Assembly: GCA_903912525.1 (NCBI GenBank)
Contig: CAIWHK010000011.1
Location: 1-32,018 of the forward strand
Origin: an uncultured bacterium
GTDB taxonomy: Bacteria > Krumholzibacteriota > Krumholzibacteriia > LZORAL124-64-63
Direction: 5' to 3'
Length of the DNA: 32,018 nt
Shown here piece after piece: positions 129 to 30,980 of this stretch. The notes under the pieces were generated by a model. It did no database searches. It had not been told where the DNA came from and saw only the letters and a program-made list of their open reading frames with translations. The first letter of the stretch is position 1; each line of letters starts with the position of its first letter. The position numbers and the translations under genes are program-made.

Positions 129-142
129 TTGCGCCGGCGCAA
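129..142. repeat. Dispersed palindrome, copy 1
   Basis: This is a perfect copy of TTGCGCCGGCGCAA. It extends to an 18-bp perfect palindrome, ACTTGCGCCGGCGCAAGT, at 127-144, and is intergenic. It is the first of ten perfect copies in the window. Confidence 0.9.
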
Positions 143-316
143 GTGGCGGTGTTCGGCGTTCCGTATCCCGGAAACAGCGTTTGGCGATGCCGGCCGAGTG
201 CAGGTTGGCGGGCGGTGGATGGGCGGGAATGGCGCGATTGATCGGGTGCGTCAAGTGCCCGCAAGCATCGAATGGTCGGACGGAGAACCCGGGGTATTCC
301 AGGCGGTACTTCGTGC

Positions 317-322
317 TATAAT
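317..322 (+). promoter_or_regulatory. Candidate -10 element (TATAAT) for the secreted repeat protein
   Basis: A perfect TATAAT lies 40 bp before the chosen start codon at 362. No good -35 hexamer is present at the usual distance, so the promoter call rests on the -10 and on its position within a locally AT-richer stretch. The predicted leader is about 30-35 nt and contains the GGAGG ribosome binding site at 352-356. Confidence 0.45.
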
Positions 323-361
323 GATTTCGCATTGTCGATCGGAAAAGATTCGGAGGCCAGA

Positions 362-3001
362 ATGCGATTTCCGATACCTTCCGCCGTTGTGTCGTTTTGC
401 ATGGCGACCATACTCTGCTCCGGCAGCGGATCTCTATCCTCATCACTGGAGCCGCCGATCCCCGAGTGTCCGTCGCTTGGTGCTTCTGGCCCGGCGTCGA
501 TACCCCAGGAACGACTCGTGAACTCTGGCGGCACATTGGATCTCGCCAATGGATACCCGGGAAGTGTGTCCACGGCTGGCTGGCGCATGGCGGCGGGCGC
601 ATCTGGGGAACCGAGGTTCGTTCCGGATACAGACCAAACAGCGTCAACCGGCCCTGCTCCGTCGAATGCGTTGCAGTTGACTTCCGTTCCTGAGGATGTC
701 CACTGGGACGGCCGTTTCGGGGCTCCGGGGGTGAATGACAGGGTCAATGCCATGGTCGTGGACGGACGCGGCAACCTGTACGCGGGCGGGGAATTCACCA
801 CAGCAGGCGGGGTGAGCGCGAACTGTATCGCCAAGTGGAACGGGACGGATTGGTCAGCTCTGGGCTCGGGGATGAGCGGTACCGTCTACGCACTGGCTGT
901 GGACGGGAGCGGCAACCTGTATGCGGGCGGAGGGTTCACGCTGCCAGGTGGGATGCTTGCGGGCTATGTCGCCAAATGGGACGGAACTAATTGGTCGACG
1001 CTGGGCTCTTGGATGAACTCTGACGTCTATGCTCTGGCTGTGGACGGCGGCGGCAACCTGTATGCCGGCGGGGCGTTCACCTGGGCTAGTGGCGTGTCCG
1101 CGAACGGTATCGCTAGGTGGAATGGGACGAGTTGGTCGGCTCTGGGATCAGGAGTGAACGGCACTATCCATGCCCTGTCCGCGGACGCGAGCGGCAGTCT
1201 GTACGTGGGCGGGGAATTCACCACGGCAGGCGGGGCGAGCGCGAACCACATCGCCCGATGGAATGGGACGAATTGGACGGCGCTGGGCCCAGGGATGAAC
1301 CAGCGCGTCGACGCCCTGACGGTGGACCGCGGCGGCAGTTTGTACGCGGGCGGATATTTCACCGCAGCGAATGGGGTGTATGCGGGCTATGTCGCCAAGT
1401 GGGACGGGACGAGCTGGTCGTCACTGGGGTCGGGCACGGACGGTATCATCAGTGCCCTGACTGCGGACGCAAACGGCAATCTGTATGTGGGCGGGTGGTT
1501 CACAACGGCAGGCGGGGTGAGCACGAGCAACGTCGCCAAGTGGGACGGGCTGAACTGGTCCACGCTGGGCCCAGGGACGGGTGGTTCCGTTTTGGCACTG
1601 GCCGTGAACGGCAGCAGCACCCTGTATGCAGGCGGGGTGTTCACAGAGGCAGGCGGGCTGATCGCGAGCCGCATCGCCAAGTGGAACGGGAAGAGCTGGT
1701 CGGCGCTGACGCCGGGCTCGGGGATGAACGACTATGTCAACGTCGTAGTTGCCGATGGCGACGGCCCTCTGTATGCGGGCGGGGATTTCACCGTGGCAGG
1801 CGGAGTGAGAGCGAACCGGGTTGCCAAGTGGGATGGGATGAGCTGGTCGGCTCTGGGCTCAGGGATGAATGGTACCGTCTACGCTTTGGCTGTGGACCGT
1901 CGCGGCACCCTGTATGCGGGCGGATCTTTCACCTTGGCCGGCGGGGTGGGCACGAGTTGGATCGCCAAGTGGGACGGAACGAACTGGTCGGCGCTGGGCG
2001 CCGGGCTGAACGGTACCGTCACGGCTTTGGCTGTGGATGGTGGCGGTACCCTGTATGCGGGCGGGTTCTTCACCACTGCGGGCGGGGTGAGCGCGAACCA
2101 GGTCGCCAAGTGGGACGGGACGAACTGGTCGGCGTTGGGCTCAGGCATGAACGGCGTTACTCGATCGCTGGCTGCGGACGGGAGTGGCAACCTGTATGCA
2201 GGCGGATCTTTCACCACGGCTGGTGGGGTGAGCGCGGACTGTGTCGCCAAGTGGAACGGGACGAGCTGGTCCGCGCTGGGTTCAGGGATGAACGGTTCCG
2301 TCCGTGATCTGGCTGTGGATCGCGGCGGCAACCTGTATGCGGGTGGATGGTTCACCACGGCGGGTGGGGTGAGCGCGAACCGAATCGCCAAGTGGGATGC
2401 GACGAGTTGGTCCGCGCTGGGTTCAGGGATGAATGGTTACGTAACCGCTCTGGATGTGGATGCGAGTGGCAACCTGTATGTTGGTGGAGAATTCTCGACG
2501 GCAGGCGGAGCTGGCGCGAACCGGATCGCCAAGTGGAACGGGGCGACCTGGTCCACGCTGGGCTCAGGGACGAGCGGTTACGCTTACGCCCTGACTGTGG
2601 ACGGCAGTGGCGCCCTGTACATGGGCGGCAAATTCGCCACGGTAGGGGGCAAAGCCTCTATTGATCTTGGTATCTGGCACGATCCGACGCCAGCGCCTGT
2701 CGTCACCCACGGAAATTCCGGTCCACACTCGACTCTTCGCAATGCCGTCCCGAACCCGTTCAACCCACGCACCACACTTGCCTTCGTGCTCCCGGAGGCC
2801 GCGCGCGCCCGGGTGGCGGTTTATGACGTTCGCGGACGCCTCGTTGCCGTGCTGCTGGAAGCGAATCTCTCCAGTGGCAGCCATGAAACAACTTGGGATG
2901 GTCGGGACTGGCGTGGCGCCGACGTCGCATCAGGGACCTACTGCGCGCGGATCGACGCGGGACCGATCCATGAGTCGGTGATGATGACTTTAGCACGGTG
3001 A
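362..3001 (+). CDS. Secreted propeller-like repeat protein with C-terminal FlgD-like/sorting domain
   Basis: The predicted 879-residue protein begins with a signal peptide (MRFPIPSAVVSFCMATILCSG). The ATG at 362 was chosen because GGAGG lies 5 nt upstream and the signal peptide follows directly; an in-frame start at 272 would add 30 unlikely residues. From about residue 138 to 790 there are fourteen tandem units of about 47 residues with the core LYAGG-x-FT-x-AGG-(x)6-AKWNG-(x)2-WSALGSG. The regular Gly/Trp pattern suggests stacked beta blades, as in beta-propellers. The last unit is degenerate. The final 80 residues (NAVPNPFNPRTTLAF... to the end) match the FlgD Ig-like/type IX-like sorting domain of FCB-group secreted proteins. 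The unit also repeats at DNA level with a 141-bp period. The ligand and role are unknown; surface display or secretion is inferred. Confidence 0.85.
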   Translation: MRFPIPSAVVSFCMATILCSGSGSLSSSLEPPIPECPSLGASGPASIPQERLVNSGGTLDLANGYPGSVSTAGWRMAAGASGEPRFVPDTDQTASTGPAPSNALQLTSVPEDVHWDGRFGAPGVNDRVNAMVVDGRGNLYAGGEFTTAGGVSANCIAKWNGTDWSALGSGMSGTVYALAVDGSGNLYAGGGFTLPGGMLAGYVAKWDGTNWSTLGSWMNSDVYALAVDGGGNLYAGGAFTWASGVSANGIARWNGTSWSALGSGVNGTIHALSADASGSLYVGGEFTTAGGASANHIARWNGTNWTALGPGMNQRVDALTVDRGGSLYAGGYFTAANGVYAGYVAKWDGTSWSSLGSGTDGIISALTADANGNLYVGGWFTTAGGVSTSNVAKWDGLNWSTLGPGTGGSVLALAVNGSSTLYAGGVFTEAGGLIASRIAKWNGKSWSALTPGSGMNDYVNVVVADGDGPLYAGGDFTVAGGVRANRVAKWDGMSWSALGSGMNGTVYALAVDRRGTLYAGGSFTLAGGVGTSWIAKWDGTNWSALGAGLNGTVTALAVDGGGTLYAGGFFTTAGGVSANQVAKWDGTNWSALGSGMNGVTRSLAADGSGNLYAGGSFTTAGGVSADCVAKWNGTSWSALGSGMNGSVRDLAVDRGGNLYAGGWFTTAGGVSANRIAKWDATSWSALGSGMNGYVTALDVDASGNLYVGGEFSTAGGAGANRIAKWNGATWSTLGSGTSGYAYALTVDGSGALYMGGKFATVGGKASIDLGIWHDPTPAPVVTHGNSGPHSTLRNAVPNPFNPRTTLAFVLPEAARARVAVYDVRGRLVAVLLEANLSSGSHETTWDGRDWRGADVASGTYCARIDAGPIHESVMMTLAR

Positions 3002-3060: not shown

Positions 3061-3435
3061 ACTTGCGCCGGCGCAACCCGAACCCGTCGATCCGTCGACA
3101 GCCGATCCATCGACCAAGGGGTCCTCGTCATCCTGACAGTTGCGCCGGCGCAATCATGGTGGCCGATCCGTCGGCCCACGCTTCCTCCGTGCACTTGTGC
3201 GGCGCAACCCGGGCCCGTCGATCCGTCGATGGTCGATCCGTCGAGCGTCGATCCGTCGATTTGGGGGTCCTCGTCATCCTGACGGCTGCGCCGGCACAAG
3301 TCATGTTGGCCGATCCTTCGGCCCCGTGATCCTCCGTGTTTCTTGCACCGGCGCAACCCGAGTCCGTCGATCCGTCGACAGTCGCTCCGTCGACCAAGGG
3401 ACCCTCGTCATCCTGACAGTTGCGCCGGCGCAATT
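3061..3435. repeat. Tandem array of three palindrome-bounded, hairpin-rich repeat units
   Basis: This array fills most of the gap 3002-3438, where no gene is seen. Three imperfect units start with a palindrome at 3063, 3195 (degenerate) and 3343 (one mismatch). Each continues with copies of GTCGATCCGTCGA, then CCTCGTCATCCTGAC or a close variant, then a second palindrome at 3140, 3286 (degenerate) and 3420. Units one and two end in a small stem-loop, GGCCGATCCGTCGGCC at 3161-3176 and GGCCGATCCTTCGGCC at 3308-3323; only the loop base differs. Both are followed by CCTCCGTG. The third unit has no tail because the convergent regulator gene ends at 3439. The spacing of 132 and 148 bp indicates duplication followed by divergence. 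The function is unknown. Confidence 0.85.
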
Positions 3436-3438
3436 CCG

Positions 3439-4968
3439 TTAGCGGAATGCACCCCAATCGATGCCCAGTTTCCGCATTCTCGCCCGCAGCGTGTGCGGGT
3501 TGATCTTCAGCACGCGCGCGGCCCCGTGCGGGCCCTCGATGCGACCCTGCGATGCGGCCAACGCGGTGCGGATGTGGCGCGCGATGGCTTCGTCGAGCGG
3601 GACCACCGGCTGGTCCGCCGTCGGTGCCGCCGGCAGTCCGTGCGTCTGCGACGCGCTGCCTTCCACCGGCCCCTGCGCATAACCCAGCGCCTTGGCCACT
3701 TCCAACCGGCGGCCGCCGCCCAGGATGACCGCGCGGTCGATGACCGAGCCCAGTTCGCGCACGTTGCCGGGCCAGTCGTACGAGGACAGCAGCGCCAGGT
3801 CGGCCGGCGTCGCGGCCTGTGGGCGCATGCCGAAGTGGCGCGAGGCGCGCTGCACCAGCATCTCGACCAGCGCAGGGATGTCCTGCGGGCGCTCGCGCAG
3901 CGGCGGCAGCACCAGGGGGAACACTGCGAGGCGGTACCAGAGGTCGGCGCGGAACTCGCCGCGCTGGACCAGGCCCGGCAGGTCGGCGTTCGTGGCGGCG
4001 ATGACGCGCACATCGACAGTGATGGTGGTCTCGCCGCCGACGCGCGTGATGATGCCGTCCTGCAGCACGCGCAGCAGGCGCACCTGGGCGGCCTTCGGCA
4101 GGTCGGCGACCTCGTCCAGCAGCAGCGTCCCGCGGTCCGAGCGCTCGAACCAGCCGCGCTTGCGGGCCGCGGCGCCCGTGAAGCTGCCCTTCTCGTGGCC
4201 GAACAGCTCGGAGTCGACCAGTTCGGACGGGATGGCGCCGCAGTTGACGCGCGTGAACGGGCCCTCGGCGCGGCGCGAGCGCGTGTGCACGGCGCGCGCG
4301 ATGACTTCCTTGCCCGAGCCCGTCTCGCCGAGGATGAGCACCGGCACGTCCGAGCCGGCGACCATCTCGACGCGTTCCATCACCGGGGCCAGGCCGCCGT
4401 CGCCGCCCACGACGGCGTCGACCAGCTGGCTGCGGCCCAGACGGGTCAGCAGCGAGGTGCGGTCGGCCTCGGCGGCGCTGCGCAGGGCGGCCAGTTCGCG
4501 CAGGCGGCGGTCGTTCTCCAGCGCGGTCGCGAACGGTTCGCGCAGTTCGGCGCACTGGCGGCAGACGGCGGCATCGGCGGGCACGCCCGGGCGCAGGGCG
4601 ACCAGCAGGGCGCCGCGGGCGCCGGGTTCGCCGGGCAGGGGGACCGCGACCAGGGAGGCGGGATGTCCGGGATCGACGAGCGCGGCCACGGCCGGGGGTG
4701 CCGCGGCGCCGGCATGGCAGGTGGCGACCTGGCCGCCGGCGAGCCAGGCCGTGAACATCGCCGCCTGGGCCGGGGTCAGTTCGCGCCGTCCGTCACCGGT
4801 GGCGCCGTCCCCCACGGCCACGAGCGTCACGCCGTCGCGCCGCAGTCGCCAGACCTTCAATCCGGAGATGGGCAACCGTCCGCCCAGCCAGATGGACGCA
4901 TGCCCCGCGAATCCCTCGAGGTCGAGGTGCAGGCTGGCTTCGCGCCACAGTTCGTGCAGGTCGGACAA
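3439..4968 (-). CDS. Sigma-54-dependent transcriptional activator (bacterial enhancer-binding protein)
   Basis: The 509-residue protein has the NtrC-family layout. An N-terminal sensor region of about 150 residues is possibly GAF-like; no receiver domain is visible. The AAA+ domain has Walker A GETGSGKE (214-221), the sigma-54 contact loop GSFTGA (261-266, the usual GAFTGA with Ala to Ser), Walker B LLLDE (to E286), the arginine-finger region ADLWYRL and WPGNVREL (399-406). A Fis-type helix-turn-helix follows at about 465-505. The start is TTG at 4968, with GGGAG 7 nt upstream; a longer TTG start at 5040 would translate the repeat-rich control region. The gene is divergent from the sulfate-type transporter operon, whose promoter has sigma-54 form, so that operon is the likely target. 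The signal sensed is unknown. Confidence 0.92.
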
Positions 4969-4992
4969 TCGACGGCTCCCGATCGGTGAACC

Positions 4993-5056
4993 AGCAAATA
5001 CAACGGCACTGTAAAGCAAATATAACGGAACAGCAAGCAAATATGCTGTATACAGT
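4993..5056. promoter_or_regulatory. Three phased direct repeats: likely activator binding sites
   Basis: AGCAAATA occurs at 4993, 5015 and 5036, 22 and 21 bp apart, so the copies sit on the same helix face. The first two continue as AGCAAATA[C/T]AACGG. The third runs into the 10-bp palindrome CTGTATACAG (5046-5055). ACTGTA at 5008-5013 and TACAGT at 5051-5056 form a wider inverted pair. The block is AT-rich against its surroundings. It lies about 80-145 bp before the predicted start of transcription, where upstream activator sites of sigma-54 promoters normally sit. It is also just upstream of the activator gene, so autoregulation is possible. Confidence 0.7.
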
Positions 5057-5109
5057 ACACCGTGTAGCGGTGGCCGTTGCGATCAAATCAGTTGACGTAA
5101 TCCCCCCGC

Positions 5110-5125
5110 TGGCCCGAGGCTTGCG
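5110..5125 (+). promoter_or_regulatory. Sigma-54 (-24/-12) promoter of the sulfate-type transporter operon
   Basis: TGGCCCGAGGCTTGC at 5110-5124 matches the consensus TGGCACG-R-N3-TTGC at every defined position except one (A to C). The invariant GG (5111-5112) and GC (5123-5124) are separated by exactly 10 nt. Transcription should begin near 5136, giving a leader of about 31 nt that holds the AAGGAG at 5154-5159. No sigma-70-type promoter of comparable quality was seen in the gap. Confidence 0.85.
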
Positions 5126-5166
5126 TTGACGGGCGACACACCTTCAACCCGACAAGGAGTCCGCCC

Positions 5167-6252
5167 ATGTGGTATCGTCATGGCATGAAGAACTGGCGTT
5201 CCCTCGCAATCGTGGGCCTGGCCGTCATCTGCGCGGTCGGGACGGCGGCCCCGGCCCGGGCGGGCAAGGGTGTCACGCTGCTCAATGTCTCCTATGACCC
5301 CACCCGCGAACTTTACCGCGAGTACAACGACGCCTTTGCCGCCCACTGGAAACAGGAGACGGGCCAGGTGCTGACCGTCGACCAGTCGCACGGTGGCTCG
5401 GGCAAGCAGGCGCGCGGCGTCATCGACGGATTGCAGGCCGACATCGTCACACTGGCCCTCGCCTACGACATCGACGCCATCGCCTCACACAGCAAGCTGC
5501 TGGCGCCCGAATGGCAGACCCGCCTGCCGCACAACAGCGCGCCCTACACCTCGACCATCGTCTTCCTGGTGCGCAAGGGGAACCCCAAGGGCATCAGGGA
5601 TTGGGGCGACCTCCTGAAACCGGGAGTCGAAGTCATCACGCCGAACCCGAAGACGTCGGGCGGCGCGCGCTGGAACTACCTGGCCGCGTGGGCCTGGGCG
5701 CTGAAGCGCGAACTGGGCGACCTGAACAAGCTGGACGATCCCAAGCAGGCCGCCGCCGTCGCCGCGGCGCAGGCCAAGGCCAAAGCCTTCGTGGGCGAAC
5801 TGTTCAAGCGTGTGCCGGTGCTCGATTCGGGCGCGCGCGGTTCGACGAACACATTTGTGCAGCGCGGCATCGGCGATGTGCTGCTGGCCTGGGAGAACGA
5901 GGCGTTCCTGGCCGTGAACGAACTGGGACCGGACAAGGTCGACATCATCGTGCCCTCGCTCAGCATTCTCGCTGAACCGACGGTCGCGGTGGTCGATGCC
6001 AATGTGGATGCCCATGGCACGCGCAAGGTGGCTGAGGCCTACCTGCAGTGGCTGTACTCGCCGACCGGACAGAGGCTGGCGGCCAAGCACTTTTACCGAC
6101 CGGTCAGCGTCGACATGGTCGACCCGGCGCTGCTCAAGCGGTTCCCGGCGCTCGAACTGGTGACCATCGACCAGGTCTTCGGCGGCTGGAAGGTCGCGCA
6201 GAAGACCCACTTCGACGACGGCGGCGTGTTCGACGCCATCTACGCCAAATAG
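5167..6252 (+). CDS. sbp: Sulfate-type ABC transporter periplasmic substrate-binding protein
   Basis: The 361-residue protein belongs to the Sbp/CysP family, which captures sulfate or thiosulfate in the periplasm and delivers it to the CysTWA permease. A signal peptide ends at ARA (about residue 32). Family landmarks follow: [17 protein letters not shown], the anion-binding stretch [25 protein letters not shown] and [16 protein letters not shown]. The ATG at 5167 has AAGGAG 7 nt upstream; an internal ATG at 5185 lacks one. It is the first gene of a four-gene operon, 9 nt before the permease gene, under the sigma-54-type promoter. Sulfate is the most likely ligand, but related oxyanions cannot be excluded from sequence alone. 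Confidence 0.95.
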
Positions 6253-6261
6253 GGAGATTCG

Positions 6262-7101
6262 GTGCGCCTGCCCCGGCGACAACATTCGGTATTGCCCGGC
6301 TTCGGACTGACGCTGGGCTTTGCCGTTGTCTACCTGTCGCTGGTCGCGCTGATCCCGATGTGCGCGCTCTTCCTGCGCGCCCGGGGCCTGGGCTGGATGG
6401 GGTTCTGGTCGACGGTGACCGAGCCCCGCGTCCTGGCCGCCTGCCGGCTCAGCTTCGGCGCCGCGTTCATCGGCGCGACGCTGAACGCCGTGTTCGGGTT
6501 CATCGTCGCCTGGACGCTGGTGCGCTATCGCTTCTTCGGCCGCCGGTTCATCGACGCGCTGATCGACCTGCCGTTCGCGCTGCCGACCGCCGTGTCGGGC
6601 ATCGCGCTGACGACCATCTACGCGCCCAACGGCTGGATCGGCCGCGCGCTCGAACCCTTGGGCATCAAGGCCGTGTTCACGCCCCGGGGTGTGGTCATCG
6701 CGCTGACGTTCATCGGGCTGCCGTTCGTGGTGCGTACGCTGCAACCGGCGCTCGAGGACCTCGAGGCCGACGTGGAGGAGGCCGCCGCCAGCCTGGGCGC
6801 CTCGCGGCCGCAGACGTTCCGGCGCGTCATCTTCCCGGCCATCGTGCCGGCGCTGCTGACCGGCTTCGCACTGGCGTTCGCCCGCGCGCTGGGCGAGTAC
6901 GGCTCGGTCGTGTTCATCTCGGGCAACCTGCCGGGCAAGACGGAGATCGCGCCCCTGCTCATCGTCACGCAACTCGAGCAGTACGACTACGCGGGGGCGA
7001 CGGCCATCGCGGTGCTGCTGCTGGTCATCTCGTTCGCAATGCTGCTGTTGATCAACCTTCTGCAGCGCTGGTCCGGCCGCCGGCACCTGAGGGGGATGTA
7101 G
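6262..7101 (+). CDS. cysT: Sulfate ABC transporter permease CysT
   Basis: This 279-residue inner-membrane protein has about six hydrophobic segments and is one half of the permease channel. The cytoplasmic loop that contacts the ATPase is visible as [21 protein letters not shown] (about residues 172-192). [10 protein letters not shown]-like and [14 protein letters not shown] segments are typical of CysT/CysU. The GTG start at 6262 is supported by AGGGAG at 6251-6256, just after the preceding stop. The stop codon lies 1 nt before the CysW start, so the two are probably translationally coupled. Confidence 0.95.
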
Positions 7102-7102
7102 G

Positions 7103-7960
7103 ATGAGCCTGCGCCCCGCCACCGCTGAACCGCGCTGGGTGCGCACGCTGCTGCTGACGATCACCATGCTGTTCCTGGCCGCATTCCTGGTGACGCCGCT
7201 GGTGGCGGTGTTCACCGAGGCGCTGCGCAAGGGCGTGGCTGCGTACTTCGCCGGCTTCGACGACCCGGCCGTGCGCTCGGCCATCAAGCTGACCCTGCTG
7301 ACGGCGGGTATCGCCGTGCCGGTGAACGTGGTGTTCGGGCTGGCCGCCGCGTGGTCGGTGGCAAAGTTCGAGTTCCCGGGCAAGAGCCTGCTGACGACGC
7401 TGATCGACCTGCCGCTGGCCGTGTCGCCGGTGGTGTCGGGCCTCATCTACGTGCTGGTGTTCGGCCTGAACGGCTGGCTGGGACCGTGGCTGAAGGCGCA
7501 TGACCTGCAGGTGATCTTCGCGGTGCCGGGCATCGTGCTGGCGACGGTGTTCGTGACCCTGCCGTTCGTGGCGCGCGAACTGATCCCGTTGATGCAGGAG
7601 CAGGGCACCGAGGACGAGGAGTCGGCGCTGACGCTGGGCGCCTCGGGCTGGCAGACGTTCTGGCGCGTGACGCTGCCGAACATCCGCTGGGGCCTGCTCT
7701 ACGGCGTGATCCTGTGCAATGCGCGCGCGATGGGCGAGTTCGGGGCCGTGTCGGTGGTCAGCGGGCACATCCGCGGCAAGACGAACACGGTTCCCCTGCA
7801 GGTCGAGATCCTGTACAACGAATACAACTTCGTGGCGGCCTTCGCGGTGGCGTCGCTCCTGGCGATGCTGGCGCTGGTGACGCTGGCGGCGAAATCGTTC
7901 ATCGAGTGGCGGATGACCTCGGCTCCCGCCAGTCCGGCTGTCCCGGGAGACCCGACGTGA
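7103..7960 (+). CDS. cysW: Sulfate ABC transporter permease CysW
   Basis: The 285-residue protein is the second permease subunit, with about six membrane segments and the ATPase-coupling loop [22 protein letters not shown]. The segment [23 protein letters not shown] is characteristic of CysW. The start ATG follows the CysT stop by 1 nt and the ribosome binding site lies inside the end of cysT. Its stop overlaps the GTG of the ATPase gene (GTGA), which again suggests coupled translation. Confidence 0.95.
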
Positions 7961-9039
7961 GCATCACTGTCGAGAACATCCGCAAGAGCTACGGGGCGTT
8001 CCAGGCGTTGCGCGGGGTGTCGCTGGATATTCCCGACAGCCAGATCACGGCGCTGCTGGGCCCCAGTGGCTCAGGGAAAACGACGCTGCTGCGCATCATC
8101 GCCGGGCTGGAGAAGCCCGATGAAGGCAGCGGGCCCATCCGCTTCCACCACGAGGACGTGGCCGACCGCCGCGTGCAGGAGCGCCGCGTCGGTTTCGTGT
8201 TCCAGCACTATGCACTCTTCAAGCACATGACGGTGTTCGAGAACGTCGCCTTCGGGCTGCGCGTGCGGCCCAAGCACGAGCGGCCGGCCAACGACGTCAT
8301 CGACCGCAAGGTGCACGACCTGCTGAAGCTGGTGCAGCTGGACGGCATGGCTCATCGGTTTCCGTCGCAACTGTCGGGCGGGCAGCGGCAGCGCGTGGCG
8401 CTGGCGCGGGCGCTGGCGGTGGAGCCGCGCGTTCTGCTGCTGGACGAGCCGTTCGGCGCCCTCGATGCGCGCGTGCGCAAGCAGTTGCGCGCCTGGATCC
8501 GGCGGCTGCACGACGAGATCGCCATCACGACCATCTTCGTCACTCACGATCAGGACGAGGCGCTGGAAGTGGCCGACCGCGTCGTGGTGATGAACGAGGG
8601 CCGCGTCGAGCAGGCGGGCGCGCCCGAGGAAGTGTTTCACGATCCGGCCACCGAGTTCGTGATGAACTTCCTGGGCCACGTGAACGTGTTCGACGGTCGC
8701 ATCGAGGACGGCAAGGTGACGTTCGCCTCGGTGCAGATCGAGCACCCGGTGGCACTCGAGTCGGCGGCGGGCCCGGCGCGGGTGTTCATCCGCCCGCACG
8801 AGCTGTCGCTACACCTGCTGCCGCGCAGCGACAGCCTGCCGGCCACCGTGACGGGCATCCACGCCGCCGGGCCGGCCGTGCGCCTGACCCTGGCCGCCGA
8901 GGGCGACCACACGTTCTCGGCCGACATCTCGCAGGATGTGTACCGGGCGCTGAAGGTCGCGGTCGGCGCCAAATTCTGGGTGCTGCCGAAGGACCTGCGG
9001 GTTTTCCCGGGCGGCGCGCCCGACAGCGACCGCCTGTGA
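7957..9039 (+). CDS. cysA: Sulfate ABC transporter ATP-binding protein CysA
   Basis: The 360-residue ATPase energises uptake through CysTW. It shows Walker A GPSGSGKT (35-42), the Q-loop in FQHYALF (Q83), signature [15 protein letters not shown] (139-153), Walker [13 protein letters not shown] with E164, and the switch histidine in VTHDQDEA (H197). The remaining C-terminal part resembles the TOBE-type regulatory domain of this family. The start was set at GTG 7957, which overlaps the cysW stop by 4 nt; upstream in-frame codons lie inside cysW. It is the last gene of the operon; no clear terminator with a T-tract is seen after it. Confidence 0.96.
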
Positions 9040-10765: not shown

Positions 10766-10779
10766 TTGCGCCGGCGCAA
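10766..10779. repeat. Dispersed palindrome, between terminator and nuclease gene
   Basis: This is a perfect TTGCGCCGGCGCAA, extended to ACTTGCGCCGGCGCAAGT at 10764-10781. It lies 21 bp beyond the T-run of the terminator and 131 bp before the nuclease start. Confidence 0.9.
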
Positions 10780-10909
10780 GTGGGGTGAGGGCGCGCGTTC
10801 CGGGCACGACCCTTCCATGGGACGCTGCACCAAGTACCTGCCGCGTCGGCCGCAAGGCGGCCGGATCGAGCCGGCGGGACGCCATGCAGTCGATCGGGAA
10901 GGAGTCAAC

Positions 10910-12043
10910 ATGTCTGACAATTCACGTCAGCCGCCGGCGACAACTGAGGCCACCATCGTCGCCGCAGACACCCTCTTTCAGCGAGTTGTCGAGATCGTAT
11001 CCGGTGCGCAGGGCCGCGTTGCGCGAGCCGTGGACACCACCATGGTCCAGGCCTATTGGGAGATCGGTCGGCAGATCGTCCTGGTCGAGCAGCAGGGGGG
11101 CATGCGGGCTGAATACGGCGAACAGGTTCTGGTCCACCTCTCGACGCGCCTAGGCGAACGCTTCGGCAAGGGTTTCAGCGTGCCACACCTCAAGCGTATG
11201 CGGCAGTTCTTCCGAGTCTATGCTTCGAAGGGCATCCAATCAGAACTGCCGGGTGAAAATGATTTTCAACAAATTGGCTCCACACTGTGGAGCCAATTGG
11301 CGCCGGGGGTGCAACCACATTTTCGACAAGAGCTTAGCTGGTCTCACTTCCGTCTGCTGATGGGCGTTTCCGACGCGTCAGCCCGCTCCTTCTACGAACT
11401 CGAAGCCGCCACCCAAGGTTGGTCCGTCCGCGAACTCGAACGCCAGATCGCCTCCCACCTCTACGAGCGCCTCGCCGCCAGTCGCGACAAGGACGATGTC
11501 CTCGCGCTCGCCCACAAGGGCCAGGAACTCCTCACTCCCCAAGACGTCATCAAGGACCCGGTCGTCCTCGAATTCCTCGGCCTGCCCGAACGCCCCCAGT
11601 GGCGCGAACGCGATCTCGAACAGGCGATCATCGACCACCTGCAGGAATTCATGCTCGAACTGGGCAAGGGCTTTTGCTTCATCGCGCGGCAGAAGCGCAT
11701 CACGCTCGACGGCGACCATTTCTTCGTCGACCTGGTGCTCTACAACCGCCTGCTCCGGTGTTTCGTGGTGATCGACCTGAAGCTCGGCAAGCTCACGCAC
11801 CGCGATCTTGGGCAGGTGCAGATGTACGTGAACTGGTTCGACCGCACCCAGCGCGAGGCGTACGAGGAGCCCACTATCGGCATTGCCCTCTGCTCCCGAA
11901 AGAACGACGCCGTCGTCCGCATGACGCTGCCGGAAGGAGAGAACCGCATCGTCGCGGCGCGCTATGAAATGGTGATGCCGACCCCCGAGCAGATCGAGCA
12001 GGCCGTGCTCGACGGCCGACGCGCGGCCGAGCGGCGGAACTGA
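10910..12043 (+). CDS. PDDEXK nuclease-domain protein of the DUF1016/YhcG family
   Basis: The 377-residue protein has the two-part family layout. The N-terminal domain (about 20-165) contains YWEIGRQIV and ELSWSHFRLLM. The C-terminal nuclease-like domain has D274 in FFVDLVLYNR, D289-L-K291 in VVIDLKLGKL, and Q302/Q304 in GQVQMYVNWFDR, the PD-(D/E)xK pattern. Members are often found beside restriction systems or on mobile islands, but the exact activity is unsettled. The ATG at 10910 has AAGGAG at 10899-10904. Codons for about residues 121-130 form a 27-nt inverted repeat (11272-11298). Palindrome copies lie on both sides of the gene and no partner gene is present, which fits an acquired single-gene insertion; that origin is inference. 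Confidence 0.88.
   Translation: MSDNSRQPPATTEATIVAADTLFQRVVEIVSGAQGRVARAVDTTMVQAYWEIGRQIVLVEQQGGMRAEYGEQVLVHLSTRLGERFGKGFSVPHLKRMRQFFRVYASKGIQSELPGENDFQQIGSTLWSQLAPGVQPHFRQELSWSHFRLLMGVSDASARSFYELEAATQGWSVRELERQIASHLYERLAASRDKDDVLALAHKGQELLTPQDVIKDPVVLEFLGLPERPQWRERDLEQAIIDHLQEFMLELGKGFCFIARQKRITLDGDHFFVDLVLYNRLLRCFVVIDLKLGKLTHRDLGQVQMYVNWFDRTQREAYEEPTIGIALCSRKNDAVVRMTLPEGENRIVAARYEMVMPTPEQIEQAVLDGRRAAERRN
11272..11298. repeat. Perfect 13-bp inverted repeat inside the nuclease gene
   Basis: AATTGGCTCCACA (11272-11284) is followed by one base and then its exact reverse complement TGTGGAGCCAATT (11286-11298). It encodes part of the linker before the conserved LSWSH motif and is more AT-rich than its flanks. 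It could fold in mRNA or as a cruciform. Confidence 0.9.
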
Positions 12044-12044
12044 C

Positions 12045-12072
12045 GGCGGACTTGCGCCGGCGCAAGTCCGCC
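12045..12072. repeat. Extended 28-bp perfect palindrome after the nuclease gene
   Basis: This palindrome copy (core 12052-12065) is extended to 28 bp of perfect symmetry, with half-site GGCGGACTTGCGCC. It starts 1 nt after the nuclease TGA. It could fold into a hairpin in the 3' end of the transcript, but no T-tract follows. Confidence 0.9.
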
Positions 12073-12094: not shown

Positions 12095-12108
12095 TTGCGC
12101 CGGCGCAA
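12095..12108. repeat. Dispersed palindrome, second copy after the nuclease gene
   Basis: This is a perfect TTGCGCCGGCGCAA with flanks AC...CT. It lies 43 bp centre to centre from the preceding copy, so two hairpins sit in tandem behind the nuclease gene. Confidence 0.9.
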
Positions 12109-13050: not shown

Positions 13051-14337
13051 GTGAAAGACGTGACGGCCATCATCCTGGGCGGCGGGCGCGGCCAGCGCCT
13101 GTACCCGTTGACGCTGCAGCGCAGCAAGCCGTCGGTCGCGTTCGCCGGCAAGTACCGCCTGATCGACATCCCCATCAGCAACTGCATCAACTCGGGCGTG
13201 AAGAAGATCTTCGTGCTGACGCAGTTCCTGTCGGCGAGCATGCACCGCCACATCATGCAGACCTATGCGTTCGATGCGTTCACCGACGGCTTCGTCGACA
13301 TCCTGGCCGCCGAGCAGACGCCCGATCGCTCCGACTGGTTCCAGGGCACCTCCGACGCCGTGCGCGCGACGATGCACCACACGATGTACTACAAGACGTC
13401 GCAGGTGGTCATCCTGGGCGGCGACCACCTGTATCGCATGGACTACGCGCAGATGGTGCGCTTCCACCGCGAGATGGGCGCCGACATCACGCTGGCGGTG
13501 TACCCGGTGTCGCGCGAGGACGCGCCGCGCATGGGCCTGCTGAAGGCCAACGAGATGGCCGAGGTGACCGAGTTCGTCGAGAAGCCGCAGGATCCCGACG
13601 TGATCGACCAGTTCCGCGCGCCGCGCGAGCTGTTCGCCGCGCGGGGGATGGTGGCCGACGCCGACACCTACCTGGGCTCGATGGGCATCTACGTGTTCGA
13701 GCCGCACGTGCTGCACGAGCTGCTGCAGGACGAATCGAAGACCGACTTCGGCAAGGAAGTGATTCCCGACGCCATCGGGAAGATGAAGGTGGTGGCCTAC
13801 CCGTTCAGCGGCTACTGGCGCGACATCGGGACCATCTCGTCGTTCTTCGAGGCGAACCTCGACCTGGTGGACAAGAACCCGCCGCTGAACCTGCACCAGG
13901 GCGCGTGGCCGTTCTACACGCGCATGCGCGCATTGCCGCCGTCGCGCATCATCGAGTCGCAGATCGAGAATTCGCTGGTGGTGGAGGGCTCGACGATCAC
14001 CGGCGCGCACATCGACCATTCGATCGTGGGGATCCGCGCGCGCATCCGCAAGGGCGCCTTCCTGAAGGACGTCATCCACATGGGGGCCGACTTCTACGAG
14101 GGCGAGCAGCTGCTGTTCGGCAAGCACCAGCCCGGGGCCAACCTGCCGCCGCTGGGCGTGGGGCGCAACTGCCGCATCGAGCGCTGCATCATCGACAAGA
14201 ATGCGCGCATCGGCGACGGCGTGGTCATCCGCGCGCAGCCGGACGTGAAGGAGCATCGCGACGAATACCGCTGGATCCGCGACGGCGTGACCGTGATCCC
14301 CAAGGGAACGATCATCCCGCCGGGCACCATCCTCTGA
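13051..14337 (+). CDS. glgC: Glucose-1-phosphate adenylyltransferase (ADP-glucose pyrophosphorylase)
   Basis: GlgC makes ADP-glucose from ATP and glucose-1-phosphate, the committed step of glycogen synthesis. The 428-residue length is typical. The nucleotide-binding loop ILGGGRGQRLYPLTLQRSKPSV is at 8-29. RLIDIPISNCINSG, WFQGTSDAVR (97-105), GGDHLYRMDY (123-132), EFVEKP (174-179) and GYWRDIGTISSFFEANL (254-270) mark the catalytic and substrate sites. The last ~130 residues form the left-handed helix domain used for oligomerisation and allosteric control. The start is GTG 13051 with GGGAG 6 nt upstream. No other glycogen gene is in the window; the next gene follows after 13 nt and may be cotranscribed. 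Confidence 0.96.
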   Translation: MKDVTAIILGGGRGQRLYPLTLQRSKPSVAFAGKYRLIDIPISNCINSGVKKIFVLTQFLSASMHRHIMQTYAFDAFTDGFVDILAAEQTPDRSDWFQGTSDAVRATMHHTMYYKTSQVVILGGDHLYRMDYAQMVRFHREMGADITLAVYPVSREDAPRMGLLKANEMAEVTEFVEKPQDPDVIDQFRAPRELFAARGMVADADTYLGSMGIYVFEPHVLHELLQDESKTDFGKEVIPDAIGKMKVVAYPFSGYWRDIGTISSFFEANLDLVDKNPPLNLHQGAWPFYTRMRALPPSRIIESQIENSLVVEGSTITGAHIDHSIVGIRARIRKGAFLKDVIHMGADFYEGEQLLFGKHQPGANLPPLGVGRNCRIERCIIDKNARIGDGVVIRAQPDVKEHRDEYRWIRDGVTVIPKGTIIPPGTIL

Positions 14338-21193: not shown

Positions 21194-21207
21194 TTGCGCC
21201 GGCGCAA
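21194..21207. repeat. Dispersed palindrome, between convergent genes
   Basis: This is a perfect TTGCGCCGGCGCAA in the gap between the cytochrome operon and the convergent repair gene. The only other element in the 183-bp gap is the hairpin at 21125-21157. Confidence 0.9.
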
Positions 21208-28802: not shown

Positions 28803-30980
28803 ATGGCATTACGGCAGTGGTGGGCTGTTTTCGGCGGGGTGTTGGTCGGGCTGGCTCTGGGTGCGGCGCCGCGGGTCTGGGCAGACCCGGCCGCGGTGGC
28901 GGGTGCCGATTCGACCGTTCCGTACCGTGGAACGCTGGAGGCGAGCTTCCCGTGGGCCGACGCGGCCACCGACACGACCCGCGTGGACGCTCCCCGGCTG
29001 AAGGTGGAAGAGCTGCTGGCGGACATCGGCCGCCGCCAGCGCGCCGACCGCGACAGCCTGCGCAGCGTCGCCGTGACCGCGGTGGTGACGGTCGTCCGCA
29101 CCCCGGACGGCGGCGCCATCGACAGCACCGGCACCTGGTCGATCGAACAGACCGCCCTGCGCACCATCCAGGAGCGGGGCCGCCCCGACCGCATCGTGCG
29201 GCTGTGGGAGCGCAAACAGAAGATGAAGGACGGCGTCCTGCAGCCCGCGAAGGAGAAGGCCGTCGGCGCGCCGCGCTGGCAGCCGCAGGCGGCCGACATC
29301 GCGGCCGACCTGCCGTTCTCCGAAGGCAGCGCCGCCCGCTACCGCTACGCGCTGCGCGCGAGCACCCTGGTCGGCACGAGCCTCGTCCACGAGATCGACT
29401 TTGCGCCGCGCGACCGCTTCGCCCCTTTGCCATCGGGCACCATCTGGGTCGACATCGCCGACTGGGCCATCCGTCGCGTGGCGGCGCGCTTTGCGGACGC
29501 GGTGCCTTATCCGTGGATCCTGCGTGGCGTGCCGGACTACCGTCTGCGGCAGTCGCCGTGCGGTGGGGTGTGGTTCCCGGTCGCGGAGACGGCTCGCGTG
29601 GTGCTGCGCGACCTGCCGCTGGTGGACAGCGGCGGTGTGTATGATGTGCGGGTGGAGTTGCTGGACATCGTCATCAACGGGGAGCCGTGCGAGGACGAGG
29701 TGGCGGTGGCGGCGCCGGATACCGCTGAAGCAGTTGTCGATGAGGGCGTCGCGTTCTGGTCGGCGATCGATGGCGCGTGGGAGGCGGCGCTGCCGGCGAC
29801 GCTGCATTCGGCGCCCGTACTTGCGCCGGCGCAACTCGACTCGCTTTCGCACGAGGGCGAGCGCATCCTTGCGGCGATGCCGTCGTCGCCACCGTGGCGC
29901 CTGCGCGTGCGGCCCCTGGCGCCCGCGTACAACCGCGCGCAGGGCTTCGCGCCGCGCGTGGGGCTGCGTTTCGGCCGCGTGGGCAGCCGGACGCGGCTGG
30001 ACGCGCAGGGCGGCCTCGGCCTGACCGATCATCGCGCGATGTGGGGGCTGGGCGCGCAGGCGGCGCTCTCGAATGCGTTCACGTTCAGTGTTACCGGCGC
30101 GCGCGAGACGGCGGCGTTCGCCGGCGATGGCCGCGCCGGCTGGCGCTTCTGGTCGGCGGTGCTGTGGGGTGGCGACCCGAACCACTACTACGACCGCACG
30201 TCGTGGACCGCCGCGCTGGCGTGGCGACACGACGACGACGCGTGGCTGAAGGCGTCGGCCGAGCGCGCGCGCGAATTGCCGCTGGGCGTGCGCACGCGCT
30301 GGAACGTGGCCGGCCACGAGCTGTCGCCGGACGGCATGCGCGTGGCCGAGGCGCTGGATGATCGCGTGGTGCGGGTGGCGGGCGGCGGTCGGGTGGGCAT
30401 CGTCACGTCACACGCCGCAGTGGCGCGGCACTGGCTGCGGGCGCGTGATGGCATCGGGGATGAGCGCACGCTGGACGAATGGCGCCTGAGTATGAAGGCG
30501 CAACGGCTGGACCCGCTGGGCGATCGGTGGACGTTGCGCGCGGGGGGGCGTGGCTTCAGCGGAGTTGCGCCGGCGCAACTGAAGGTCTGGGCCGGCGACT
30601 GGTGGCCAGGCGATGACGTGGACGCGGGCGGCGGCTCATTGTGCGGCTGGCCCGCCGGCACGCTGGCCGGCGATCACGGCGCGTGGGCTTCGCTGGCGGT
30701 GGACCTGAACGTGGATCCGTGGCGGTCGCTGCGCGTGCCTGGGTTGCGATCGTTGCGGCTGCAGCCGCTGGTGTTCGCCGAGTGGGCCGGGGCGTGGGGC
30801 GGGTCGGCAGTTGACGGCGCGGCCACGGGCTCGCGGGCGGATGTGGGGCTGGGGTTCAGCCGCCGGGTGGACCTGCCGCTGGTGGGGGCGGGCAGTCGGC
30901 TGGAAGTGCGGGCGGCGCGAGCGGTTGGCGAGGGGGCGGAGGGGCAGGATTGGCGGGTTGTGGTGGGGATCGGGAGGTGA
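28803..30980 (+). CDS. Predicted outer-membrane barrel protein with LolA-like N-terminal region
   Basis: The 725-residue protein starts with a signal peptide (MALRQWWAVFGGVLVGLALGAAPRVWA). Residues about 30-290 contain LRASTLVGTSLVHEIDFAPRDRFAPLPSGTIWVDIADWAIRRVAARF, which resembles the outer-membrane lipoprotein-sorting fold often found in front of barrels in FCB-group proteins. From about residue 370 the chain is rich in alternating strands (VGLRFGRVGSRTRLDAQGGLG, WTAALAWRHDDDAWLKASAER, RADVGLGFSRRVDLPLVG), as expected of a barrel. The ATG at 28803 has GAGG 6 nt upstream. Two palindrome copies lie in frame and both read APAQL, near residues 341 and 589. Substrate and role are unknown. Confidence 0.8.
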   Translation: MALRQWWAVFGGVLVGLALGAAPRVWADPAAVAGADSTVPYRGTLEASFPWADAATDTTRVDAPRLKVEELLADIGRRQRADRDSLRSVAVTAVVTVVRTPDGGAIDSTGTWSIEQTALRTIQERGRPDRIVRLWERKQKMKDGVLQPAKEKAVGAPRWQPQAADIAADLPFSEGSAARYRYALRASTLVGTSLVHEIDFAPRDRFAPLPSGTIWVDIADWAIRRVAARFADAVPYPWILRGVPDYRLRQSPCGGVWFPVAETARVVLRDLPLVDSGGVYDVRVELLDIVINGEPCEDEVAVAAPDTAEAVVDEGVAFWSAIDGAWEAALPATLHSAPVLAPAQLDSLSHEGERILAAMPSSPPWRLRVRPLAPAYNRAQGFAPRVGLRFGRVGSRTRLDAQGGLGLTDHRAMWGLGAQAALSNAFTFSVTGARETAAFAGDGRAGWRFWSAVLWGGDPNHYYDRTSWTAALAWRHDDDAWLKASAERARELPLGVRTRWNVAGHELSPDGMRVAEALDDRVVRVAGGGRVGIVTSHAAVARHWLRARDGIGDERTLDEWRLSMKAQRLDPLGDRWTLRAGGRGFSGVAPAQLKVWAGDWWPGDDVDAGGGSLCGWPAGTLAGDHGAWASLAVDLNVDPWRSLRVPGLRSLRLQPLVFAEWAGAWGGSAVDGAATGSRADVGLGFSRRVDLPLVGAGSRLEVRAARAVGEGAEGQDWRVVVGIGR
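29821..29834. repeat. Dispersed palindrome inside the barrel protein gene, first copy
   Basis: This is a perfect TTGCGCCGGCGCAA within coding sequence, read as L-A-P-A-Q-L in a proline-containing linker before the barrel. The palindrome has no stop codon in any frame, so it can lie inside a gene without breaking it. Confidence 0.9.
30565..30578. repeat. Dispersed palindrome inside the barrel protein gene, second copy
   Basis: This is a perfect TTGCGCCGGCGCAA, extended to AGTTGCGCCGGCGCAACT at 30563-30580. It is read in the same phase as the first coding copy (V-A-P-A-Q-L). Confidence 0.9.

Follow-up and report, generated by a model that had tools for sequence, protein, structure and literature searches.

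A genus-specific palindrome and its putative partner family of HNH nuclease genes at a tandem array in an uncultured Krumholzibacteriota bacterium

Between positions 3061 and 3435 of the 32,018-nt stretch of DNA that we analysed (the window), palindromes and small hairpins recur in tandem. What kind of element is this array? A first-pass annotation had proposed either a non-autonomous repeat, possibly linked to a RAYT transposase, or a multi-hairpin RNA. We compared the array with the rest of its own genome (G000), with three genomes of the same genus (the congeners G001, G002, and G003), and with other genomes of the family and class.

Structure of the array and distribution of its palindrome

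The array does consist of three composite units in tandem, as the first-pass annotation had described; they start at 3062, 3208, and 3342 (spacings of 146 and 134 bp). Each unit comprises a palindrome, 15-bp GTCGATCCGTCGA repeats (two, three, and two in units 1–3), CGTCATCCTGA, and a second palindrome. This order was correctly described for all units, but the stem-loop that was said to complete it follows units 1 and 2 only. The stem is the same in these two units and the loop base differs, as had been noted (GGCCGA-TCCG-TCGGCC after unit 1 and GGCCGA-TCCT-TCGGCC after unit 2). Unit 3 has no stem-loop, and the array terminates at a palindrome. The first palindrome of unit 2 is broken. The features are as follows (strand is given in parentheses; a dot means none).

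3061–3435 (.): palindrome-bounded tandem array of three units, flanked by a beta-propeller/FlgD-tail ORF and a sigma-54 regulator gene
3061–3078 (.): palindrome 1 (ACTTGCGCCGGCGCAACC); homology to all three congeners stops at its left edge
3140–3153 (.): palindrome 2, exact 14-bp core
3194–3207 (.): palindrome 3, degenerate (CTTGTGCGGCGCAA, read directly); its form is identical in G001 and G002
3286–3299 (.): palindrome 4, two mismatches
3343–3356 (.): palindrome 5, one mismatch
3420–3433 (.): palindrome 6, exact; it closes the array on the right and lies 5 bp past the stop end of the regulator ORF
3074–3136 (+): spacer X of unit 1, 15-bp repeats and then TCATCCTGA; open in the palindrome frame, reading QPEPVDPSTADPSTKGSSSS and then stop
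3205–3282 (+): spacer X of unit 2, three 15-bp repeats
3354–3416 (+): spacer X of unit 3
3161–3176 (.): stem-loop GGCCGATCCGTCGGCC in spacer Y1
3308–3323 (.): stem-loop GGCCGATCCTTCGGCC in spacer Y2

Of the nine X spacers from three species, eight have no stop in the LAPAQ frame of the palindrome until a TGA that they share. The neighbouring ORF at 272–3001 (+) has about twelve 141-bp (47-residue) beta-propeller repeats (DUF5122/Rax2 matches) and a FlgD-like C-terminal domain. On the other side, at 3439–9039, the sigma-54-dependent regulator lies opposite a putative sulfate/thiosulfate ABC transporter operon (a binding protein, two permeases, and an ATPase, all named by reading the sequence only). 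The closest matches to the regulator among database contigs (genome_contigs) reach no more than 52% identity, cover only parts of it, and come from scattered phyla.

Allowing up to two mismatches, TTGCGCCGGCGCAA occurs 12 times in the window versus 0.53 expected, and shuffled sequences never attained this count, so the array is far above chance. There are three exact copies of CGTCATCCTGA in the window, every one within the array, and 11 matches to GTCGATCCGTCGA (2.0 expected), eight of which are in the array. The 15-bp and TCATCCTGA motifs of the array are local.

The part that repeats genome-wide, beyond what the window alone could reveal, is an 18-bp perfect palindrome, ACTTGCGCCGGCGCAAGT. 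Its 14-bp core has 296 exact copies in its own genome versus none for the pattern read backwards, and 224, 141, and 176 copies in G001, G002, and G003. In a further 34 genomes from the family and class, the core is missing from 31, one has six copies, and two have one each. To describe the genomic context, we used about 412 kb of the genome along with the genome-wide counts. Within these 412 kb, the core is the most over-represented 14-mer (150 counts on both strands versus 0.05 expected). Copies of the full 18-mer are mostly intact: 40 are exact, 24 have one mismatch, 12 have two, and four have three (76 of 80 with at most two). The consensus has no shared flank. As judged from approximate gene calls (a home-made hexamer model), 51 of 75 sites lie between predicted genes, although intergenic DNA makes up just 17% of the sequence, and the other 24 lie inside predicted genes. 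The intergenic copies are found between divergent (20), convergent (17), and tandem (12) genes.

Besides those in the array, the window contains these dispersed copies:

129–142 (.): palindrome with a homologous copy in G001
10766–10779 (.): palindrome that follows a terminator-like hairpin; in G001 and G002 it is conserved though the flanks diverge
12052–12065 (.): first of two paired palindromes whose 14-bp cores are separated by 29 bp
12095–12108 (.): second palindrome of the pair; a single palindrome in G002, and one plus a remnant in G001
21194–21207 (.): palindrome whose surrounding DNA is missing from G001
29821–29834 (.): palindrome within a predicted ORF
30565–30578 (.): palindrome within a predicted ORF

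Another local cluster, at L069:6559–6686, is a tandem array of four palindromes with a period of 38 bp. The exact 18-mer is also found in one 5.3-kb viral contig from IMG/VR (L345:1037–1054).

The proposal of a repeated DNA element thus holds for the palindrome but not for the composite unit. When we searched the genome with the unit as query, we found no second composite locus, and the other matches were short and centred on the palindrome. We rejected a non-autonomous composite element, as the unit has no second genomic locus and the 15-bp and TCATCCTGA motifs are local.

Junctions and palindrome-bounded segments in the genus

The composite unit, although confined to one locus in its own genome, is conserved at that locus in the congeners: all three have the array at the same position, beside the same sigma-54 regulator gene (identified with Pfam). 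G000, G001, and G002 have three units and G003 has one; if everything from palindrome 2 to palindrome 6 of the window is joined out in silico, what is left is arranged as in G003. On the left side of the array, the palindrome itself is where homology stops. Past it, the species differ in gene content: G000 has the beta-propeller ORF with the FlgD-like tail, G001 and G003 have a gene that resembles a sigma factor, and G002 has a Fic-like gene (the last two named by reading the sequence). In G001 only, an inserted GC-rich hairpin of about 100 bp separates the array from the regulator gene (L216, about 13100–13235), and this insert looks like a different repeat family.

Statistically, palindromes in this genus mark junctions where the adjacent DNA is replaced. 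Where congener DNA could be compared, 20 of 73 informative palindrome sites coincided with an end of homology, versus 15 of 266 intergenic positions chosen at random (p = 1e-6, odds ratio 6.3). This ratio is partly inflated: two palindromes will always align with each other, which makes the alignments slightly longer, and the true value is somewhat smaller. Also, when the flanks of neighbouring palindromes were joined in silico, the joined sequences matched a congener in 22 comparisons versus one for mismatched flanks (the control); these 22 are redundant and correspond to about seven or eight independent events, not all of them clean. The clearest cases are the pair at 12052 and 12095, which is one palindrome in G002, and the pair at 48714 and 48748 on contig C9, which is one in G001. 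The genomes are draft assemblies in which contigs may be misjoined at repeats, yet the same junctions recur between genomes.

The segments that are gained or lost whole between palindromes include array units, gene modules, and a 43-bp piece. On contig C7, genes of the DUF1016/YhcG, IrrE/HTH, NYN, and AbiEi types lie between palindromes, and blocks are missing in G001. (This gene cluster spans L065:11000–19300 in G000. Several of the palindromes on C7 are followed, about 50–60 bp on, by an operator-like inverted repeat of the AATTyTCCCGACAGTGTCGGGAnAATT type.) The window has a similar candidate, which shares 82% DNA identity with a paralogue on C9 whose protein matches YhcG_C and DUF1016_N:

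10909–12043 (+): DUF1016/YhcG-type nuclease gene, candidate cassette between the palindromes at 10766 and 12052 (start approximate)

A single palindrome was missing from otherwise continuous congener sequence at a handful of sites, none of them with a target-site duplication. At orthologous sites, 18 of 26 exact cores are unchanged, and identity is 0.88 in the core versus 0.76 in the flanks.

A family of HNH nuclease genes that carries the palindrome

By searching with a palindrome-rich stretch of contig C8, we found a gene family with about ten copies per genome (5–16 in this genus). The C-terminal part of the encoded protein is an HNH domain (PF01844, above the Pfam cut-off), and the N-terminal part has no Pfam match. 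In two members, DUF222 (PF02720) had no match at E values up to 10, and we ruled out membership of the DUF222 family for this reason. Among the copies, which were sampled from the best matches, nearly every one from this genus has the palindrome at residues 163, 277, and/or 362, so that it lies inside the gene and at its 3' edge. When the paralogues are aligned, homology is lost exactly at the palindrome after residue 362; the 5' homology begins near TTTTACTTGCGG, which resembles a palindrome half. One copy in G003 is adjoined by a decayed HNH module with a palindrome on either side. Some copies have an in-frame TGA and look decayed (G000:C58, G000:C59, G001:C290, G002:C256, and G003:C54).

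Among the G003 copies, identity is 90–97% from the palindrome at 277 to the one at 362 but 68–78% in the N-terminal parts. This difference indicates that the 277–362 module has been exchanged among these copies. Overall, the modules are mostly inherited vertically, and exchange is clear in G003 only. For most copies there is an orthologue in the congeners, with an identity of about 0.9, which implies that the HNH genes are not hopping now.

Across the bacterial family, HNH genes of this kind are present in 36 of 38 genomes, and a genome can have as many as 37 copies. In other genera, a perfect palindrome of 14–24 bp lies at residues 236–260 or 300–312 in 38 of 53 genes, versus 0.11 palindromes per whole gene after codon shuffling; about a quarter of the genes lack a 14-bp palindrome in the linker. 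Examples are AGTCCAGACGTCTGGACT, TTTACACGTGTAAA, GTTCCCCCCGGGGGGAAC, ACCCGCCGGCGGGT, and AAATCGCTCCCCGGGGAGCGATTT. The sequence of the palindrome varies while its symmetry stays, so symmetry is what matters. In another bacterial family, HNH genes have linker palindromes at two of three loci. One gene in G022 (L322) has two unlike perfect palindromes, of 24 bp near residue 151 and of 16 bp at residue 244, which suggests site turnover.

Two of the palindromes carried by HNH genes in other genera were used to predict which sequences would be repeated. TTTACACGTGTAAA occurs 40 times in G018 and is absent from the 37 other genomes. ACCCGCCGGCGGGT has 59 copies in G046, 11 in G041, nine in G019, four in G012, and at most one in each of the other 34. 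For G018, we sampled 14 copies from twelve contigs that were picked for their absence from the listed HNH contigs, and all 14 were in unrelated DNA with no HNH gene within 400 bp. Of ten copies sampled in G046, four were in HNH genes, two were near them, and four were far away. Dispersal outside the HNH gene is therefore not peculiar to the genus of the window, though among the genomes tested it is strongest there. Overall, these genome comparisons show that gene and palindrome are matched by lineage.

Explanations for the array

We give an even chance to the following account of the array: it is a six-copy cluster of a genus-specific 18-bp palindrome, and this palindrome is the partner site of a multi-copy family of HNH endonucleases that would cut and rejoin DNA there. 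The HNH protein, probably as a dimer, would recognise the palindrome of its own lineage and nick or cut it (on one or both strands). Since all of the resulting ends would be alike, repair could join or copy in another palindrome-ended segment. Such repair would add units, swap neighbours, and spread the palindrome, and the array could have grown by palindrome joining from one unit, as in G003, to three. This scheme would account for the symmetric sites, the mixed gene orientation, the tandem arrays, the loss of whole units, and the palindromes at module borders. Several observations speak against it: most HNH copies have orthologues in the congeners, clean gains of a single palindrome were not seen, some HNH genes of other genera lack a linker palindrome, and at least four of the ten G046 copies simply sit in HNH genes. 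More tentatively, we see it as possible, if somewhat doubtful, that the lineage's own palindrome and the HNH nuclease form a cassette system, in which any two palindrome ends opened by the nuclease can be rejoined; genes, modules, and spacers move as palindrome-bounded pieces; and the gene for the enzyme carries its own site at its module borders.

The main rival is binding without cutting. The palindrome would be only a binding site for the HNH protein or another dimeric DNA-binding protein (as in autoregulation or chromosome organisation), kept by selection, and the junctions would be a by-product of intergenic rearrangement. Perfect symmetry that is retained while the sequence differs by lineage fits this idea, as do the preservation of orthologous cores relative to their flanks and the presence of copies between divergent as well as convergent genes. 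By itself, though, binding leaves the exchange of modules among HNH genes, the detached palindrome-bounded HNH module, and the exact ends of homology unexplained, and we consider it unlikely. It is improbable that the palindrome is a mobile or selfish element in its own right, spread by some recombinase or by replication errors, with the HNH genes as favoured landing places. Such an element could explain why palindrome-bounded segments come and go and why about a third of the sites (24 of 75) are in predicted genes, including genes other than HNH. It does not explain the fixed linker positions in HNH genes of many genera despite different sequences, the success of the HNH-borne sequence as a predictor of the repeated one in two tests, or the lack of clean single-palindrome insertions.

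Could the array instead be a transcribed RNA or a cluster of hairpin terminators? It lies at a gene's 3' end, between convergent ORFs, and its predicted fold is very stable (z of -8.5). But these palindromes pair mutually by construction, and because any array of palindromes gives a strong fold, the z score is expected. There is no Rfam match, the hairpin arms degrade in G003, and many dispersed copies are between divergent genes. In total there was a single compensatory change, which is not convincing covariation. The multi-hairpin RNA of the first-pass annotation therefore found no support, and we rejected a structured RNA on these grounds; an RNA or terminator of any kind seems very improbable. 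We give hardly any credence to the units being remnants of a coding tail, in which the palindrome encodes LAPAQ and is followed by 15-bp (5-residue) VDPST repeats and a stop. The open spacers with their shared TGA would fit, and the LAPAQ frame of the palindrome is also used in HNH genes. However, one unit is frameshifted, the changes (as judged by eye) are not mainly synonymous, and our search of the genome found no parent gene at another locus. As for REP or BIME elements moved by a RAYT transposase, a short palindrome with hundreds of copies, clusters, and lineage specificity is what would be expected. But PF01797 (the Y1 transposase family) has no matches in G000, G001, and G003 and one weak, interrupted match in G002; the 18-mer is perfectly symmetric, without an unpaired GTAG or CGTC tag; and the partner gene is HNH, not Y1. 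With no PF01797 gene in its own genome, the suggested link to a RAYT falls away, and we rejected this explanation as having next to no chance of being correct.

The reading of the palindrome as the partner site of the HNH nuclease can be compared to several known systems. The HIP1 element of cyanobacteria is a highly iterated palindrome of 8 bp that is mostly genic. It is likewise a very over-represented short palindrome that is conserved among relatives, but ours is 18 bp, mostly intergenic, and matched by lineage to a nuclease gene. Integron gene cassettes are small genes, some of toxin-antitoxin or nuclease types, that are delimited by a repeated site; integrons have attC sites and an IntI-type tyrosine integrase. 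Here too, small genes are delimited by a repeated site and are present or absent as units, but the site, a short perfect palindrome, lacks attC structure and gene orientation is mixed. Free-standing HNH homing endonucleases share the HNH domain and the (here predicted) link to one long DNA site. Homing normally destroys the target site, whereas in our family the site persists both within the gene and next to it.

The nearest system in behaviour is REP/RAYT, and the nearest by gene type is REP13E12. REPs are short, species-specific, clustered palindromes with over 100 copies, and a nuclease-type gene carries the palindrome, with copy number following the gene (PMC2817692). The high copy number (296), the genus specificity, the clusters, and the nuclease-type gene with the same palindrome are all similar here. 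REPs have a GTAG/CGTC tag and are mainly between unidirectional and convergent ORFs (PMC3733652). In contrast, we found an HNH partner, no Y1 transposase, and no such tag; this palindrome also lies within coding sequence, where it delimits gene modules, and gaps between divergent genes are common locations. According to the available portion of the source on REP13E12, a DUF222-HNH family of Mycobacterium tuberculosis, it is a multi-copy HNH family with strong gene conversion among paralogues, and that portion does not describe a dispersed palindrome (PMC13061034). The C-terminal HNH domain and the several copies per genome are shared, but the N-terminal domain of our family has no DUF222 match. 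Rickettsia palindromic elements are in-frame palindromes inside genes (PMC10969869), which is the sole trait they share with ours: they are about 150 bp, in unrelated genes, and have no partner enzyme, whereas here the palindromes are 14–24 bp, at fixed positions, and in one nuclease gene.

We found no HNH-linked dispersed palindrome described in the open-access literature. To our knowledge, the dispersed palindromes of bacteria have been tied to just one class of enzyme, the RAYTs, and many families of palindromes have no known enzyme. Here, an HNH family that is unrelated to RAYTs is matched, lineage by lineage, to the repeated palindrome of its own genome, and two new repeat families were predicted correctly. 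If the cassette system is real, it would recombine DNA by a mechanism with no relation to transposases, integrons, or RAYTs, and its site specificity would change between genera. The family would offer many natural pairs of enzyme and site with differing specificities, making the origin of dispersed palindromes directly testable, and the match between nuclease and palindrome suggests a route by which small gene cassettes may be reshuffled.
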